The notes under the pieces are model-generated. The model ran no database searches. It was not told the DNA's origin and saw only the letters and a program-made list of their open reading frames with translations. A stretch of DNA of 64,000 nucleotides. Source: Acholoe squamosa (taxonomy: Eukaryota; Annelida; Polychaeta; Phyllodocida; Polynoidae). Position numbers and translations under genes: made by a program. Positions 18,142 through 53,314 of the stretch are shown in pieces. The stretch lies in NCBI GenBank assembly GCA_949317995.1, contig OX439048.1, positions 24,247,495 to 24,311,494 on the forward strand, written 5' to 3'. Within the stretch, counting starts at the first letter, position 1. Each line of letters starts with the position of its first letter.

Positions 18142-18218
<77 letters not shown>
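18142..18218. repeat. (CA)n(TA)n compound microsatellite
   Basis: About 6 CA units run directly into about 32 TA units, visible directly. The open frames that run through this tract on both strands are artefacts of the two-base repeat. Confidence 0.95.
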
Positions 18219-33499: not shown

Positions 33500-33802
33500 T
33501 GTTGATGCCACCACGGACCCCTGGGGTCCGGGCCGCAACCACCAGAAGTCGCATCCACAAGATGGGCTGAGCTAGAGGCTGTGATAATTTTGAAAATAAA
33601 GGAACCATGATAACATCCCTATCTTCTTATAGAATTTGAATGTTAGCCCTAACCCTAATGACACAGTCCTAACACTGTAGAATCATGAAATGTCTAAAAT
33701 TAGACTTTATTATAGTTTGAAATATGTTGACATTTCGGACCAGACGACAGCCTTACATCCGTGTTATGGCCCGGACCCCAGGGGTCCGTGGTGGCATCAA
33801 CA
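33500..33802. mobile_element. element with perfect 35-bp inverted repeats
   Basis: The arms at 33500-33534 and 33768-33802 are exact reverse complements. They begin TGTTGATGCCACCACGGACC and end GGTCCGGGCC. Each arm contains a nested palindrome, GGACCCCTGGGGTCC. Weaker similarity continues about 15 bp beyond the arms (GCATCAGACAA and GCACAAGACAAA), so the true ends may lie further out. The GC-rich arms contrast sharply with the AT-rich neighbourhood. No coding capacity is seen. Confidence 0.65.
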
Positions 33803-34827
33803 TTTGTCTTGTGCAAGTGGTGCATCCTCCATAATTATTAGGACCCATACACTCAAACCTGACAGTGTTTTGTATGTTTCTCTGTTTGTTTGTTGATCAG
33901 TGCTAGTTCATCTCTTTTACTTTGCATGTATTTTATCCCTATTTGCCAATTCACACCCACTATATGTCCCTTTGAACCATTTCAATTAATATTGTCTATA
34001 GGCTATAGGCCTACACTATTTATGCACCTTGGGGTTGTATCTCTCTGCATGATGTCATGCTGAGGGGGGTCAAGTGTTGTATGACGAAACATGACAAGGG
34101 GGGCAGGGGGTCAAAAATGGTCCAAAAATGCATGACGTCATTTGTACACAGCCCTTTTCTTAGGTGCACACTGAGAGTGAGTCACTGAGACACAGTCCAC
34201 ATCTGAATGCTCCTATGTGGATTACTGTAGGTTTCTCGTCTCACCAGGTGCCAGCACAGGCACAGTTTGCCAAATAGGAAACGTGTAAATGGAAAATTGT
34301 GTACTTGTTGAACCCCGGACCTGACCACAACACCAGTAACTGACCTATGTTGAGTTGAAAGAATGCTGGCATGTGTCTAAGGTTGTAGTTCCCTGTGTAA
34401 ATGAATTTGAAAAGGCAGGTCAGAATTTAAGACACAAGGAGGACGATTTTCAGTCATGATTTAAATATGGCATGTTGCGAAGTCAGATAAACACGTAAAC
34501 TTTATATCTATTGCAAAATTACAGAGTACTTGGAGAGAATTGTATTAGAAGGATTCTTTGTAGACTAACCTATTTCATGTACTACGTATCTGTCATCTTG
34601 ATTCACTCGCAATCGCATGTGAAAATTCTATTCTGCGCCAAGGACTTTAAAATCTTGGGAGACAACTAGGAGTCTTCGAAGGCTACTCTATGAAATTGCT
34701 CTTGGTCCTCTGAGACAGAAGATACACAGATACATTTTGATAATTGCTCGAGGGTATCACCTGTTACAAACTATCTACCTCAGAATCTATAGGGGGAGGT
34801 TTCTATGTATTCTGAGAAAGTTTACAG
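33803..34827. other. non-coding stretch with a transposon-like fragment
   Basis: At about 34040-34160 a G-rich stretch with CATGACAAGGGGGG and ATGACGTCATTTGTAC resembles the interior and end of the Harbinger-like element at 54212. It is probably a decayed relative. No gene is supported. Confidence 0.4.
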
Positions 34828-36155
34828 TAACTAGTGGTACATATGTGCCTGTCAGCACCATATTAGTATTGGTAAATCCTTGTATGTGCCTGTGACCACA
34901 CAGGGTTGTTGTATCCTTGTAAGCCCAACAGTACTACAGTGTGACTGTGCTTGTATGTTTCCATCTACACCACAGTGTGGGGGGTATCTCTGTATGTTCC
35001 TGTCAGTACCACAGTGTGAGGGTATCCCTGTATGCTCCTGTCAGTGCCACAGTGTGGGGGTATCCCTGTATGTTCCTGTCAGTACCACAGTGTGGGGGTA
35101 TCCCTGTATGCTCCTGTTAGTGCCACAGTGTGGGGGTATCTCTGTATGTTCCTGTCAATACCACAGTGTGGGGGTATCCCTGTATGTTCCTGTCAGTACC
35201 ACAGTGTGGGGGTATCCCTGTATGCTCCTGTCAGTGCCACAGTGTGGGGGTATCTCTGTATGTTCCTGTCAATACCACAGTGTGGATTATCCCTGTATGT
35301 TCATGGCAGTACCACAGTGTGGGGGTATCCCTGTGTGGATAGTGTCAGTACCACAGTGTGGGGGTATCCCTGTATGTTCCTGTCAGTACCACAGTGTAGG
35401 GGTATCTCTGTATGTTTCTGTCAATACCACAGTGTGGGGTATCCCTGTATGTTCATGGCAGTACCACAGTGTGGGGGTATCCCTGTATGTTCCTGTCAGT
35501 ACCACAGCGTGGGGGTATCCCTGTATGTTCCTGTCAGTACCACAGTGTGGGAGTATCCCTGTATGTTCCTGTCAGTACCACAGTGTGAGGGTATCCCTGT
35601 GTGGATAGTGTCAGTAACTAGTGGTACATATGTGCCTGTCAGCACCATATTAGTATTGGTAAATCCTTGTATGTGCCTGTGACCACACAGGGTTGTTGTA
35701 TCCTTGTAAGCCCAACAGTACTACAGTGTGACTGTGCTTGTATGTTTCCATCTACACCACAGTGTGGGGGGTATCTCTGTATGTTCCTGTCAGTACCACA
35801 GTGTAGGGGTATCCCTGTATGTTCCGGTCAGTACCACAGTGTGGGGGTATCCCTGTATGTTCCTGTCAGTACCGCCTAGTGTAGGGGTATCCCTGTATGT
35901 TCCTGTCAGTACCACAGTGTAGGGGTATCCCTGTATGTTCCGGTCAGTACCACAGTGTGGGGGTATCCCTGTATGTTCCTGTCAGTACCGCCTAGTGTAG
36001 GGGTATCCCTGTATGTTCCTGTCAGTACCACAGTGTAGGGGTATCCCTGTATGTTCCTGTCAGTACCAAAGTGTGGGGGTATCCCTGTATGTATCTTTCA
36101 GTACCACAGCATAGGAGTATCCTCTATGTTCCTATCAGTATTACAATGGGAGTAT
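34828..36155. repeat. 39-bp minisatellite with a 787-bp higher-order repeat
   Basis: About 30 units of 39 bp, each built from GTATCCCTGTATGTTCCTGT plus CAGTACCACAGTGTGGGGG, make up most of the block. Because 39 is 13 codons, the plus strand reads open in all three frames for up to 242 codons (for example 34880-35608). These frames are repeat artefacts, not a gene. A diverged leader of about 180 bp starting TAACTAGTGGTACATATG at 34828 recurs at 35615, giving a 787-bp superunit. Read on the minus strand, the unit matches the stop-codon end of the membrane-protein gene at 36368. Confidence 0.9.
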
Positions 36156-36367
36156 TCGAGTTTTTAGGCCCATTTCTTATGGCTCTGTATAAATAGATTG
36201 TAAATCAGTACTATTCTTTATGGCTATATTCAATAGAAAACAGTTAGTGCTATAAGGGAAATGTAAATTTATAACAATCTGTCAATACAACAGTGTGTGT
36301 GTGTGTATGGGGGGGGGGGGGTATCCCTTTATGTTCCCATCAGTGTCACAGTGTCGGGATATCCCTG
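36156..36367 (-). other. probable 3' UTR start of the membrane-protein gene
   Basis: This lies directly downstream of the TGA at 36370-36368 on the minus strand. It holds a (GT)n run at 36293-36306 and a run of about 13 G (plus strand) at 36309-36321, plus one decayed copy of the 39-bp unit. I see no AATAAA or ATTAAA on the minus strand here, so a transcript could run on into the minisatellite. This is inference. Confidence 0.35.
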
Positions 36368-36470
36368 TCAGTACCATAGTGCAGGGGTATCCTGGTAGCC
36401 ACCTGTATTTGAGGTAGGTAGAGGTCGCCAGAAGGCTGGTCTTGTGGCTTCTGTCTCCAGTCTTAACCGC
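36368..36470 (-). CDS. membrane-protein gene, last coding exon
   Basis: On the minus strand, acceptor TTTTCTTCTAG (AG at 36472-36471) opens a 103-nt exon that ends at TGA (36370-36368). Its first base completes a codon begun in the previous exon. It encodes a short basic-then-polar cytoplasmic tail: RRLRLETEATRP, then AFWRPLPTSN, ending DTPALWY. With the upstream exon this gives a type I topology by the positive-inside rule (KKRRLR just after the membrane segment). The last codons and stop are nearly identical to the unit of the adjacent minisatellite. I do not recognise the family. The call rests on matched phases and splice sites across four exons. Confidence 0.6.
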
Positions 36471-36738
36471 CTAGAAGAAAACAGAATAAGTTTTAGACTG
36501 ATGTTTTGGATGTACTATGTCAACTGATGACACTGTAACATGAACTATCATTAATGACCCTATGTTAGCCAACATATGAGAAACAGGTCAAACTGCATAC
36601 GGTAATTTTTTTTTCTAGATTTCAGAGTTGACTTTACATACATGCCCATTCTCATTACCAACTCTAGTGGCTAGGCCTTTTCCCAAATTAGAGATCATAG
36701 CACCTCCATGGTGCATAGGTAGATGACGTGGGGCTTAC

Positions 36739-36829
36739 CTTTTCTTTATTGATGCTGTGAAGAACCATGCAATACGAAGAACTCCCAGAACTATCAGAGT
36801 CCCACCTATAATGAAGCACAGCACTGCCC
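36739..36829 (-). CDS. membrane-protein gene, transmembrane exon
   Basis: A 91-nt minus-strand exon lies between acceptor GTATGAACCCACAG and a strong donor (AAAAG then GTAAGC). It encodes a single hydrophobic span, AVLCFIIGGTLIVLGVLRIA, followed by WFFTASIKK. Glycines in the middle of the span and lysine/arginine right after it are typical of a single-pass membrane helix with its C-terminus in the cytoplasm. It starts with two bases that join the single G left by the previous exon to make glycine, and ends with two bases that join the next exon to make arginine. No stop codon interrupts the frame. Confidence 0.65.
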
Positions 36830-37613
36830 CTGTGGGTTCATACAGAGGTAGAGAAAAGTAAGGACTCTTATCTACAATATATCTACAATGGGCGTTTGTC
36901 AACGGCCAAAGAGTAAGGGTGCTCTCGATAGGGTCTTATGTGCTAGTCAATGCGTCCCTCAATCTTAAAAAGGAAACGTTTTTACTTTGTTTTTGACAAA
37001 GTAGAAAACCAACCCTTTAAAGGTGGTATATATATTTTTTTTTCAAACGTGTTTATTGATCGCTCCACTACGCAAAAGGGGGGGGGGTAATATTGCGACC
37101 AAAAAAAATGTAGGCTCAGTTTCACTTGTTATTTTGTGTGTATAAAGACATGACAGTCCCATCCTGATTGATAGGATATAATGTCTATGGTGGTATATTA
37201 TTGCTATGATGCATTGATGCAGACTAGCGAGTGCTGGTCTGCGAGTCTAGCACTGCATTGATGGATCAGGCAGATCCTTTGAGAAGTGCTAATTTTATGG
37301 TGGGCATGATGTATCAATACATGTCCACTATGAACGCTTAACCCTTTCACCCCCCGAATGTCTGTTACTCTATGGGATTCGCATGCAAATCCTTCTTTGT
37401 GGGGTGTAAGGGGTTAAGGGACTCAAAATGCAGAACTGTGTCCTTTCACAAAGTAGATAATAGGCTAGATTTAATTTACTGAGGTCCTAAGGTCGATGAG
37501 AAGTTGATTCCTGAGATAGTAGTATTTGTGACGTTACATCACTGTGACGTAGCATACTAACCTATGACGTAGCCATCCATCTGATACGGGGGCACAATCG
37601 GCTCACACGTTAC

Positions 37614-37658
37614 CTCCTTTGGTGACGGTATACACACCATCCATATCCTCACAGGTTT
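37614..37658 (-). CDS. membrane-protein gene, 45-nt juxtamembrane exon
   Basis: A small minus-strand exon lies between acceptor CCATTCTTGATAG and donor GGAG then GTAACG. It encodes TCEDMDGVYTVTKG, the segment just outside the membrane helix. It is a multiple of three and phase 1 at both ends, like its upstream neighbour, so either could be skipped without breaking the frame. It contains one cysteine. The small size makes this exon less certain on its own, but its phase fits both neighbours exactly. Confidence 0.5.
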
Positions 37659-38288
37659 CTATCAAGAATGGAAATAAAACTGAGTATTCAATTTATCACA
37701 TCCACTACCTTAAAACTACAAACTCCAAATCAATCTTCACTGTAAACCCCTCCCCCATTGAAACTGTATGGCGTGTGAGCCATTCCGATGTAGACATGGT
37801 TATTTAGGCATAAAAACTGTTCTTGTAATACCCTTCCCAAAATACAGAATAGTCAATCTGATTTGCCTGAGACAAAGTATATAAATCAAGTCACATCAGC
37901 CCCATTCGGTAAAAAAAAACGCCTCATCGAGATGACAAATTCGAAAGTAAGAAGTTCATGGAAATGGGAGTGTTTACGAGGCACCGTTTAAAACCGTCGT
38001 AAGTAGTATATCACACTGCGGATTTGATCCAGGTTACCCAGAGATTCATCAAAAGGCCGGACATTGGAAGATATTTTAGATGAGGAAGGAGGAGCAGGAC
38101 AAAAAGATACTACAGGATTGGGGAATCGTCTAAACTGTGGGAAAATAATAGATAGAATATCAGAAAATATGACACCAAGAACCATATTATAGGCTACATA
38201 ACACTGCTCTTGGCGACATAGATTGTGACTATTTCCATGATGTTCAGTAGGTCTCACTGACTCGATAACATACTGGCTACCTGTGACA

Positions 38289-38293
<5 letters not shown>

Positions 38294-38360
<67 letters not shown>
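38294..38360. repeat. (TA)n microsatellite in an intron
   Basis: About 33 TA units lie between the 45-nt and 84-nt exons of the minus-strand membrane-protein gene. Visible directly. Confidence 0.95.
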
Positions 38361-38363
<3 letters not shown>

Positions 38364-38490
38364 CAGCGGTGATGGGTGGGTTTTACTGGCAGTTTATCAA
38401 AGCGATTATCGGTGAATTCCCGTCACAATAAATTACGATACCAGACAGATGTAGGTCTGCTGGAGTGAAGTAACCCCTATTCTCACTTAC

Positions 38491-38574
38491 CTGATATTCT
38501 CCTTGTATCCTTTTCGTCCTGTGATTCTATTTGTAGCTTCGATTTCAGCAGAAGCACACTCGTAGCATCGTTTC
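38491..38574 (-). CDS. membrane-protein gene, ectodomain exon
   Basis: This 84-nt minus-strand exon lies between acceptor GTGTTTAACATAG and a consensus donor, CAG then GTAAGTGAG, the best splice site in the gene. In the frame that fits the next exon it encodes NDATSVLLLKSKLQ followed by the charged stretch ESQDEKDTRR. A second frame is also open but would break the downstream phase. The preceding exon must end with one base. A possible 27-nt exon at 40069-40095 (ending CCGCCAG then GTAAAC) has the right phase and would read DFLLSFPPG into this one, but its acceptor is weak. The signal peptide and N-terminus were not found. Confidence 0.5.
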
Positions 38575-41080
38575 CTATGTTAAACACTAGTCCCTTCTAA
38601 GTTATTCGCTTTCCCTTTGGCCAATAGATATCACGATAGGCTCGGCGAAAGGATTATTTAACGGCAGAATTTCCCAAATCATCCACAGTTTGTGAGAGTG
38701 TGTCATCATACTGAGTTGTTCCAAATCGTTAAATTCATGGTTTGGTGTCAGTGTAACTGTGTGTTTCTCTGTGTGTGGGGGGGGGGAGGGAGGGGGGTTA
38801 CACCTACATGCAGAGGGACAATTTAGTCCTTCTGGGTCACGGTCAGAAATCCTAGGCACAGGAGTTAGTGGACTACAAAGCACGAGTGTTTCATGTAACC
38901 TCTCCTATTTATGAATTCAAAAACCTACATGTATGTGATGTTGCTCTATGTGGTCTTTTCTGATCCGAAAAATAAAGGTTGTGGTATGCCTTAATACCTT
39001 AGGCTGTGGGAGATCCATCATTTTCAATCCCTGGGCAAGTTTTGAAATAGTTTTGAGGAATAGAGAGCTAGCATTTAAGAGGGTCTCCTCTGCTTTGCCA
39101 TTTCAGTTCACAAGGAAATTTTGAATATATCTTGGTTTAATTGTCTCCGGGTATAAACTGAGGCACAAACCGGCTTCTATTTCTTTATCCTGGTATACTG
39201 CTTTTCTCATGGATGCATAATTTTGGCATTGATTTGGCACTATCTGAGTGTGGCCTTTTTCACTGACTCGGGCTTACTAAAGTCGTGAGATATTTCATTT
39301 GGCATGAAGAAGATTAAAGGACTGCCGGGTCTATTTTCATGAGATTTTGGAAATTTAGAAAACGTCGCGTGATTGTAATGCCATAGCATGACAAAGTTTG
39401 GTTGAGGAGAGAGGATGGGGGTTATCGGTAAAGGCGGGTGAGGGGAGGGGGTCCATAGACGCGTGAGTCAAAATGACAGAATAACAAACTGATACAGGTC
39501 TGAATGAACACAGAGCTTAGGTTTTTAAGAACAATACCCAATGCAGATCTTACGTTTCATAGGGCTAGGGGCTTTATTAAAGCATCTCAAAAGGGCATTA
39601 ACCTGGACTTTTCTTCACTCTATGTGTCTAGTTAACATTATGTGTGCAGGAATGGACGCACATCCACCATTTGGAATTTGAATGTAATTTTCTCGCCATA
39701 GATATGATTTAGTTGTTGAAATGGTTTTAAACTAGCATTACTCACTTTCAGAACTAGTTCTAAATCAGCATGATTGTTGACTGTGCTAGGGATGTGTCGG
39801 CACACGGTGGGATATGCTCAAATCAATAGGATGTGCCCTACGATCAAATCAACAGGATGTGCCCTTTTCTATCTTTCACTTTTTTTTCCGAAACAAAATC
39901 TTATCTAAGGAAAACAAAATTTGTGTTCATGTTAAATTGGTGTCCACAACTGTAAGAAACGCTTAAATCCCTATGGGGGCCATTTGATTAGACTCTAAAG
40001 GTCGCCGATAATCAAAGGTCACCATCCCATAATAATGTAGGCCTATCCATAGTGACGCAGAGGTTTACCTGGCGGGAAGCTCAGCAAAAAGTCGTCTGCT
40101 TTTTACTTAACACTATAAGGCCTGCATTATACATTATTTCAGTGTGTCCTTCAGTTGTCAGGATGCATTAATTCAGCCCATAAGGCTAAATCCCACAACG
40201 TGAAAATGGTAAAGGATATGTGGTTGCTTATCCGATATTGGGGTGGTAATGTCGTATAAGGAAGGCCTATAATGGCTAAGAATCCTTGCCAAAGTGCTAG
40301 TATTTGAGGAGTAGAATACATCAAAAGTTATCAAAAGTTTTTGATATTTTCTTCACAAAGGGCCAGAAATCTCTGTGATAGACATAAAATCCCTGTGATT
40401 TAGAGGAAAACAACAGTTTCTAGAACATCACAAGAGGTGTGTCTTTAATAAATCAGGAGCCAAGTTCCACAGACTACAGTTAAAAGAAGTTTCTGCTTGT
40501 GATTTATGCGAGCTATGTTTGTTTTGCACAGTGTATAGATGGGAGGGGGGAGGGGTGTGGCACGCTCATACCTGGGCCCAACAACCTAGGGTAGATGTGG
40601 ACAGGGCGGGGGGATGTTTGCAGTGTAAATTTTGAGACAAACCAATTTATCTCTTTTTAGCTAAAAAAAAACTCAAGCTAGCAAAGAATAAATGGGGAGG
40701 CACAATGTTGTGCTCCGTGCATGCTGAATTTCACCCTCCTCACCTTGTTGTTTATCTCCTTAAACAATGTTTTTTAGAGAATGATACCTAATAATAACAA
40801 AGGGGTTCGGTCGCAAAAAGTCCACCCAAAACCTCCCAAAACCATGACCTCCTGTGGTTAAAAAGGAAGGAAGGAGTGGAGACGGAGGAAGGGATCTGGT
40901 CATCCTACCTTTATAGGGAGACCTTATATTGATGGGGTGCACCGGTAGGGATGTTATTCCTGCAGATGCATGGCTCTGTTGCTAAATTAATGGTGAAGTC
41001 ACAACTTTTTCTGAGTTCTCGAACAACTCCACCCCCATGATTCCAACCCTATGGAAAATACTTACAGCTATTATTTCATT
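38575..41080. other. intron or intergenic stretch of the membrane-protein gene
   Basis: It holds a run of G at about 38779-38796 and a 27-bp direct duplication (CAAATCAATAGGATGTGCCC, at about 39819 and 39846). The weak 27-nt candidate exon (40069-40095, minus) also lies here. No other exon is supported. Confidence 0.4.
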
Positions 41081-41435
41081 TCTCAGATTACATAATGTAT
41101 TTGTAATATAATGTATTGTCTTTGTCATACCGAACCCTGATCTCTGTGAAGCCTGCAACATCCTCACCCCCATCCTCACATCACAATAAATTATTATATA
41201 TCTATATATCACCTTAATAACTGAGAATTGCGCTCATTGCAAGGATGTTCATCAAGCTGAATACACTTTTTCTTTGTAACCAGATTAATATAAAAATAAA
41301 CGGGCTGGTGCTTTGCATCATTACCCATACTCAAAAAAGAATCTGCATCCTCAATATCCTCGAATAAGAATTCATTGTCATCTTGAATTTCTAATATAGC
41401 TGCCATGAGTCGATCTCAGTAAGAGTGGTAAGACA
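41081..41435. repeat. local duplication, longer copy
   Basis: Two blocks of this stretch (about 41081-41174 and 41341-41435) recur joined together at 41521-41705, without the 166 bp between them. On the minus strand the second block opens a frame at ATG 41406-41404 that starts MAAILEIQDDNEFLFEDIED and runs 65 codons to a stop at 41209. This acidic start is protein-like and faintly recalls N-termini of Harbinger-type transposases, but no domain is seen, so I do not call a gene. Confidence 0.55.
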
Positions 41436-41520
41436 TGTTGGACGATGGGATCAGTGTGTGCACCAAGCTAAGGGAAGTTGGGGGGGGGGGATGGGTGGGT
41501 GTCATAGTCACACACCATTT

Positions 41521-41705
41521 CTCAGATTATATAATGTATTTGTAATATAATGTATTGTCTTTGTCATACCGAGCCATGATCTCTGTGAAGCCTGCAACAT
41601 CCTCACCCCCATCTGCATCCTCAATATCCTCGAATAAGAATTCATTGTCATCTTGAATTTCTAATATAGCTGCCATGAGTCGATCTCAGTAAGAGTGGTA
41701 AGACA
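41521..41705. repeat. local duplication, shorter copy
   Basis: It matches 41081-41174 plus 41341-41435 almost base for base, with the intervening 166 bp absent. The break is at CCTCACCCCCATC / TGCATCCTCAAT. Either an internal deletion followed duplication, or the longer copy gained an insertion. The acidic minus-strand frame keeps its ATG here (41676-41674) but is altered after about 22 codons. Confidence 0.6.
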
Positions 41706-42618
41706 TTTTGGACGATGGGATCTAGTGTGTGCACCAAGCCAAAGGGGGGGGAGCGGTGGGTGTCATAGTCACACACCATTGTGTCACTGTGATTTTAATA
41801 TCAAATACTCTATATCCCTATGAATGAAACTAGCAATTCATCTGTACAGTCATGAAAATTACAGAGTTTTCCCTGCCAATATCAGCTATAGTGGGATTTG
41901 GAGTATACGGAAAACTAGGGCCAGAACCCTTGTGATTTAGGAAATTGACAAGAGTGCAAGGTTGCTGATATGCAGAATCACAAACATTTCATACCCATTA
42001 TACATGTAGGGGGATTTGGCCTGTACATAATCAAAATCCTACAGGGTGGACAGTTGTGGAGGATCTATCCCCAAGAAATATTTCTGGTCGAAAGTTTAGA
42101 TTATGCACATGGCTAAACCTGTTGCCAAAATATATCTACGCTTTATCAGCTGCTCTGCCATCATTGATACACTCCCGACTGGTAGACATGATGCATCAAA
42201 CTTGGCATCAAACTTGGTGTATCATGACGAGTAAGGAATAGAGAACTTGGGGCGCTCTCCAGCCTAATTGCTCTCTCGAGAATGGTTAGTTCTGAAGTCT
42301 CTCCCAATGTCGTGACTGGAATCTGCAGGGACCTGCTTATTAGTCTCTCAAGCCCTCCTTGGATCTTTAAAGTTCTAGACTCAGCCAGAATACCAACTTG
42401 TAGAGAATAGTCTACCCTGCTTGTGATTCTGTTGTATCTGTTTGTGCTACCTTTGTTAGTATTTGTGGTCTGTATTTTCTGTTTGACTTTATGCATTTGT
42501 ATAAAATGTGTCATTGTGGTACGGTATTCAACAATATTAACAAAGGGAGTGATTTTGGAGACCCCTGATATCTCACAGAAGGCAAATCTTAAATAATCAA
42601 TGCCGAAATATGACGGGA
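41706..42618. other. non-coding stretch with an unassigned open frame
   Basis: A long minus-strand frame (42161-42679, begins at a non-ATG codon) overlaps here and into the next feature. It has no recognised motif. No gene is supported. Confidence 0.4.
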
Positions 42619-47490: not shown

Positions 47491-48923
<1,433 letters not shown>

Positions 48924-52616: not shown

Positions 52617-53314
52617 CTCACACACTCCCTTGGATCTGGAATGGGAACCCTCCTCATCTCCAAGATCCGTGAAGAGTACCCCAACAGGATCATGAACACC
52701 TTCTCTATCGTACCATCCCCCAAGATATCAGACACTGTTGTTGAGCCCTACAATGCCACCCTATCTGTGCATTAGCTTGTTGAGAACACAGATGAATCCT
52801 ACTGCATTGACAACGAGGAAGCCATCAGTACCGTGCCCTGACTGTGCCTGAGCTCACCCAGCAGATGTTTGATGCCAAGAACATGATGGCTGCCTGTGAC
52901 CCCTGTCATGGCCGCTACCTCACCGTTACTGCCATGTTCCGTGGCTGCATGTCCATGAAGGAGGTTGATGAGCAGATGCTCAATGTACAGAACAAGAACA
53001 GCAGCTACTTTGTTGAATGGATCCCCAACAATGTCAAGACTGCTGTCTGTGACATCCCACCCCATGGACTCAAGATGTCTGGAAACAGCACTGCTATCCA
53101 GGAACAGTTCAAGCATATCTCTGAGCAGTTCACTGCTATGTTCAGGCGTAAGGCTTTCCTCCATTGGTATACTGGTGAGGGTATGGATGAGATGGAGTTC
53201 ACTGAAGCTGAGAGCAACATGAACGATTTCGTCTCTGAGTACCAGCAGTACCAGGATGCCACAGCTGAGGATGAGGGTGAGTTTGATGAGGAGGAGGGAG
53301 AGGAGGAGGCTTAA
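52617..53314 (+). pseudogene. beta-tubulin pseudogene, 5'-truncated
   Basis: This is a broken copy of the gene at 47586. It begins at the equivalent of codon 135, so it lacks the promoter and about 30% of the protein. A 12-bp deletion removes most of the GTP loop (GGGTGSG becomes GSG). A CAG codon has become TAG (52773-52775). A 214-bp deletion at 52817/52818 shifts the frame, and another 12-bp deletion removes TFVG before NSTAIQE. From 52844 onward the correct frame is open for 156 codons to the normal acidic tail and TAA. Several arginine codons have turned into cysteine or histidine ([21 protein letters not shown]) by C-to-T or G-to-A change at CpG. It cannot make a working tubulin. Confidence 0.93.

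Follow-up and report, generated by a model that had tools for sequence, protein, structure and literature searches.

A tandem array that begins directly behind a gene and resembles the end of that gene raises the question of which of the two gave rise to the other. Such a case is found in the annelid Acholoe squamosa, where a small predicted membrane-protein gene is directly followed by a minisatellite of about 35 repeats, the unit of which is similar to the gene's last codons and stop codon. In the original prediction, the stop-spanning end of the last exon had seeded the array, which was thought to serve in turn as a reservoir of alternative gene ends. Here, the window stands for the whole stretch of DNA that was analysed, with a length of 64,000 nucleotides.

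The predicted gene and its last exon

The gene lies on the minus strand and its predicted exons are as follows, from the gene end upstream:

36368..36470, minus strand: predicted last coding exon, ending in DTPALWY-TGA (acceptor rank 6/3,897; supported by frame and chain)
36739..36829, minus strand: predicted exon with the transmembrane helix AVLCFIIGGTLIVLGVLRIAWFF, then KKRR across the splice (donor 5/3,696, acceptor 231/3,897)
37614..37658, minus strand: predicted exon, the start codon probably at 37644-37642 (acceptor 46/3,897, donor 91/3,696)
38491..38596, minus strand: predicted upstream exon, probably untranslated (donor at 38491, rank 1/3,696)

These ranks were taken among 3,696 GTs as donors and 3,897 AGs as acceptors, scored with splice frequency tables from general knowledge, and are to be read as relative only; position 38596 marks the end of the open frame, not the 5' end of the upstream exon. 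The exon phases agree and the frame stays open across three introns, giving a predicted protein of 74 residues with one strong hydrophobic helix, KKRR after the helix, and the C-terminus DTPALWY. The summed score of this chain is 33.8, and the automatic best chain in 36301-39000, which takes the in-phase acceptor at 36805 instead of 36829 and codes for 66 residues, scores 34.1. None of 300 dinucleotide shuffles reached the latter value (highest 28.1). Among 92 overlapping tiles of 2.7 kb that cover the window on both strands, those holding parts of the gene included, the top score was 28.2, and third place, with 27.3, went to a tile containing part of this gene. Since the best chain through the exon exceeds all 300 shuffles, the predicted gene end at 36368-36470 is probably real.

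The opposite reading, in which this exon would not be a real gene end and the edge of the array would simply lie behind a splice-like site, seems unlikely to us. It would agree with the mediocre acceptor of the third exon (231/3,897) and with the lack of both a Pfam family and a paralogue in the genome, but it has to face the acceptor of the last exon (6/3,897), the donor preceding it (5/3,696), the first donor (1/3,696), and a single frame that is open across three introns in a chain matched by 0/300 shuffles. The predicted protein belongs to no Pfam family at the cut-off, and the genome search returned no second copy of the gene, four of the five hits being the gene's own exons and the fifth noise. 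Thus, the gene is probable and, within the genome and the Pfam collection searched, an orphan.

Several other candidates were discarded. A longer second exon, ending at 37558, was rejected because its donor ranks 1,332/3,696. The PDB entry 7rdr_A, which we take to be a designed repeat protein, was hit with an E-value of 1.3e-6 for the whole sequence, with no single stretch passing, and this hit falls on the upstream, probably untranslated exon. A second PDB hit (E 1.6) was also discarded, and both a C8 protein hit (E 7.2) and the sub-threshold Pfam family DUF5305 (E 0.11) were considered noise. The predicted first intron contains a pure AT dinucleotide run at 38294-38360.

Structure and turnover of the array

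Minisatellites typically show a homogeneous centre, higher-order patterns and degenerate edges, and their units reach an upper limit of about 100 bp. The lower limit of the unit is placed at about 7 bp in one account of tandem repeats (PMC8096271). The array described here consists of the following parts, none of them assigned to a strand:

34842..36148, no strand assigned: main block of the minisatellite, in which a partial unit of 6 bases precedes 35 parsed units of the 38-bp repeat
34825..35017, no strand assigned: degenerate left edge of the array, recently duplicated as a block (193-bp identity to 35612-35804)
35612..35804, no strand assigned: second copy of the left edge within the array (CAGTA at both junctions)

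Tandem Repeats Finder reports 31 copies of a 38-bp unit at 34969-36140, and a wraparound parse widens the array to 34842-36148, with 35 rows after the partial first unit; both correct the unit length of 39 bp given originally. The array runs head to tail and its unit falls between 7 and 100 bp. According to the unit parse, the middle of the main block is homogeneous and its ends are degenerate, and three-unit patterns recur by eye every 114 to 116 bp in the wraparound parse, so that both the unit and the architecture are those of a minisatellite. One of the 35 parsed units, at 35607, is the remnant of a duplication junction. The two copies of the left edge, 34825-35017 and 35612-35804, are the same over 193 bp without a single change, differ at five positions in the next 69 bp, and are flanked beyond the 193-bp duplicate by blocks that differ from each other. 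This identical block suggests a recent change in the array, and the turnover of the main block is both recent and ordinary for a minisatellite. The left flank at 34745-34841 is weakly similar to the unit (p 0.014), which hints that the array formerly extended further to the left.

In searches of the species' own 1.48-Gb assembly, in which very common words were skipped and the best candidates alone were scored, matches to the unit were confined to this locus, both exact (5/5) and by similarity (8/8). A unit taken from a dispersed repeat or derived from a transposon was rejected on the strength of these hits, all of those scored being at the own locus. On the plus strand, a reading frame of 257 codons stays open within the array (34835-35608), and the 38-bp consensus unit contains no stop in any plus frame; this open frame is probably due to chance.

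Match between the exon end and the unit

As originally described, the last exon ends with codons for DTPALWY and TGA, which read GAT ACC CCT GCA CTA TGG TAC TGA on the minus strand at 36391-36368, and its similarity to the unit, put at about 26 of 29 bases, was found to be just that, with 26/29 bases alike over 36364-36392. The best of 124,484 other 29-mers, tested on both strands of the window outside 34700-36480 and against any phase of the unit, reaches 19/29. With gaps allowed, the exon end scores 43 against the unit, and the best sequence outside the array 26. The coding part of the exon by itself scores 35, a value to be compared with 30 or less in 5,000 first-order Markov randomisations. 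The minisatellite does overlap the predicted gene end.

The gene-side edge and the repeat that splits the array

The array breaks off behind 36148 and is taken up again closer to the gene, in the following order:

36155..36277, plus strand: dispersed-repeat fragment that splits the array (matched at 24 further places of the species' genome)
36278..36335, no strand assigned: gene-side unit X1, its GT and G runs expanded (unit parse)
36336..36363, no strand assigned: gene-side unit X2, in which the unit's final 10 bp are missing (unit parse)
36364..36401, no strand assigned: outermost unit X3, where the last exon ends (26/29 over 36364-36392)

The three gene-side units thus span 36278-36401, with the exon copy X3 as the outermost one; the last nine bases of X3 are alike to the unit at 3/9 positions by eye, and the 10 bases missing from X2 adjoin a CCTGT. 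The interruption is unlike the unit (p 0.452). When 36140-36520 was searched against the genome with the best candidates scored, 48 places were listed, consisting of 24 other matches to the fragment, 12 matches to the GT/G run, 11 that represent the locus and its array, and one that matches 36279-36322, GT/G run included. Thirteen of the 24 other copies were aligned, and the sequence that they have in common extends beyond either end of the fragment in the window, which is therefore an internal piece of a dispersed-repeat family; it differs from the majority of these 13 copies at 11/118 positions, plus 6 gap columns. An alignment of 561 bp connects two copies of this repeat; across the copies, one end is sharp and shared, the other variable.

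Since the fragment has array units to its left and right, the simplest account would be that the array extended as far as the exon before the repeat inserted into it. We infer both the insertion and its order, since 36155-36277 contains neither end of the family and no target-site duplication was detected there. The exon contains AGGTCGCCAGAA at 36422, which occurs once in the window and most of which is also present close to an end of the dispersed repeat. This likeness is taken for chance, because the remainder of the exon matches none of the fetched repeat copies, and 36407-36520 has no other match among the scored genome candidates.

The units, as proposed, were aligned with the exon end. 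The exon core does align to them, but the resulting tree is unrooted and gives the exon-first reading weak support. The core of X3 is closer to the interior units U26, U29 and U32 (27/29) than to the adjoining X1 and X2, a pattern that suits an old ancestor but also a conversion. That the last seven codons and the stop are an edge unit still exchanging sequence with the minisatellite has, in our judgement, a slim chance; if it were true, a tandem array outside the gene would partly write the protein's C-terminus. The decay of the three units, counted by eye, amounts to 3/29 in X3, 4/38 in X1 and 6/28 in X2, and the difference between X3 and the other two is too small to speak for a coding constraint.

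Origin and direction

The explanation that we favour, with a confidence slightly above even, is that of an old single-locus minisatellite that originated where a small gene for a one-helix membrane protein has its 3' end. A segment of about 38 bp, with CCTGT at its borders and comprising the final codons and the stop, would have been duplicated in tandem, and further copies would have built up downstream of the stop through slippage and unequal exchange. Later, a dispersed repeat would have inserted into the gene-side edge, so that three old units, including the exon copy, became detached from the main block. The latter would have kept homogenising itself, and it recently duplicated its own left edge.

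Tandem duplication leaves both outer junctions unchanged, and for this reason a founder containing the stop region is the default reading. Outside the locus, no hit for 36140-36520 extends past 36327, and past 36406 the locus itself is the only match. X3 adjoins exon sequence for which this search gave no other match, and the founder would therefore most simply have included the present exon end. Its borders point the same way: in the plus strand of 36250-36480, CCTGT occurs only at 36364 and 36402, exactly 38 bp apart, and it is present at 133 of the roughly 64,000 plus-strand positions of the window, or about 1 in 500. This spacing counts as a single register-specific coincidence, noted post hoc, since the exon upstream of the match has no significant likeness to the unit (p = 0.245; p = 0.508 in a second test). 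The poor agreement of the last nine bases of X3 with the unit (3/9) and the closeness of its core to interior units also speak against the exon as founder. The stop-spanning segment is plausibly the founder of the array.

We give clearly less credit to the reverse order. Here, the array would have come first or overrun the gene end, and the reading frame would run into the outermost unit, taking seven codons and a stop from it. X3 does stand in line with the other degenerate edge units, X1 and X2, its best match to the unit ends inside the exon at 36392, and no relative of the gene was detected in the genome that would show an older C-terminus. However, plain tandem duplication leaves the edge of an array where it is, and a new flank would require a deletion or a conversion at the exon border, of which no independent sign was seen. 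The seeding of the array by the exon end, as proposed at first, is thus retained as the default under tandem duplication, its polarity being unproven, because an edge unit left by a pre-existing array would look nearly alike; we put the exon-first direction at about one half.

The array and the ends of the gene

Each unit was originally said to carry, in the gene's frame, a near-copy of the C-terminal codons plus a stop. Unit by unit, this is so: a stop occurs at the matching place in 30/38 parsed units, exon copy included, and 13 of the 37 non-exon units read exactly DTPTLWY followed by a stop, with three more reading DTPTLWH and a stop. With respect to the frame of the gene itself, these 30 stops are spread over all three frames, 10 of them in frame and 11 and 9 in the other two.

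An array acting as a reservoir of alternative gene ends, reached by splicing, length change or conversion, would profit from these 30 matching stops, and the 27/29 identity of the X3 core to some interior units would also suit it. Against this, 38 bp is not a multiple of three, as reflected in the 10, 11 and 9 stops; read-through past the TGA runs for 12 codons to a TAA that precedes the main array; on the minus strand of 34842-36400, no acceptor ranks better than 158/3,897; and the dispersed-repeat fragment lies between the exon copy and the main block. The mixed-frame stops, the short read-through and the weak acceptors make the array hardly a store of gene ends, and we consider the idea very improbable. 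The same applies to the claim that changes in array length or conversion could alter the protein, given that read-through ends short of the main array and the repeat separates the exon copy from it. The array is probably non-coding and, as far as can be judged from the DNA, without effect on the protein. Downstream of the stop, the first AATAAA is met at 33706, with none in between, and variant hexamers are present before the array at 36328, 36268, 36225, 36217 and 36173.

Other features of the window

Elsewhere in the window, an uninterrupted beta-tubulin reading frame with the Pfam domains Tubulin and Tubulin_C occupies 47580-48923 on the plus strand, and 4 kb further on approximately its C-terminal third, and no more, is present a second time (52811-53314, plus strand). 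On the minus strand, a local direct duplication at about 41100-41420 and 41520-41720 holds two frames that are near-identical by eye (LMAAILEIQDDNEFLFEDIEDAD). Further pure AT dinucleotide runs are located at 956-1007 and 18154-18218, and CpG is strongly depleted in the window as a whole (observed/expected 0.34).

Relation to known systems and significance

The founders of minisatellites have been described as sequences with flanking repeats of 5-10 bp (Haber and Louis 1998, as told in PMC3389668 and PMC6947457). Judging from these accounts, the locus is alike in its unit of tens of bases, in its later growth by slippage or unequal exchange, and in the CCTGT that borders the exon copy on each side, with a spacing exactly equal to the unit; it differs in that its flanking repeat has just 5 bp, at the lower limit of the range, and is known from the present array alone. 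Compared with tandem repeats as a whole, human VNTR loci are reported to be enriched in UTRs and in coding exons (PMC8096271), and with the VNTRs of 3' UTRs and exons outlined there our case shares the position of its tandem array, which lies at a gene's 3' end and overlaps an exon, although it is known here from the sequence of one assembly. The tandem repeats derived from transposons, as presented in PMC3389668, are alike in having a dispersed repeat within the array; here, however, the unit occurs at its own locus only, and the repeat splits the array instead of being its source. A minisatellite at a gene end looks like an ordinary arrangement, known in kind. In the literature covered, we recognised no precedent for a unit that spans a stop codon, which does not prove that there is none.

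The general view of how genes end is unchanged by this locus. What it offers is a readable case of the possible origin of a minisatellite, where the probable founder is still in place and tied to the end of a gene, where the borders of that founder fit a published model, and where an inserted repeat gives a relative date.
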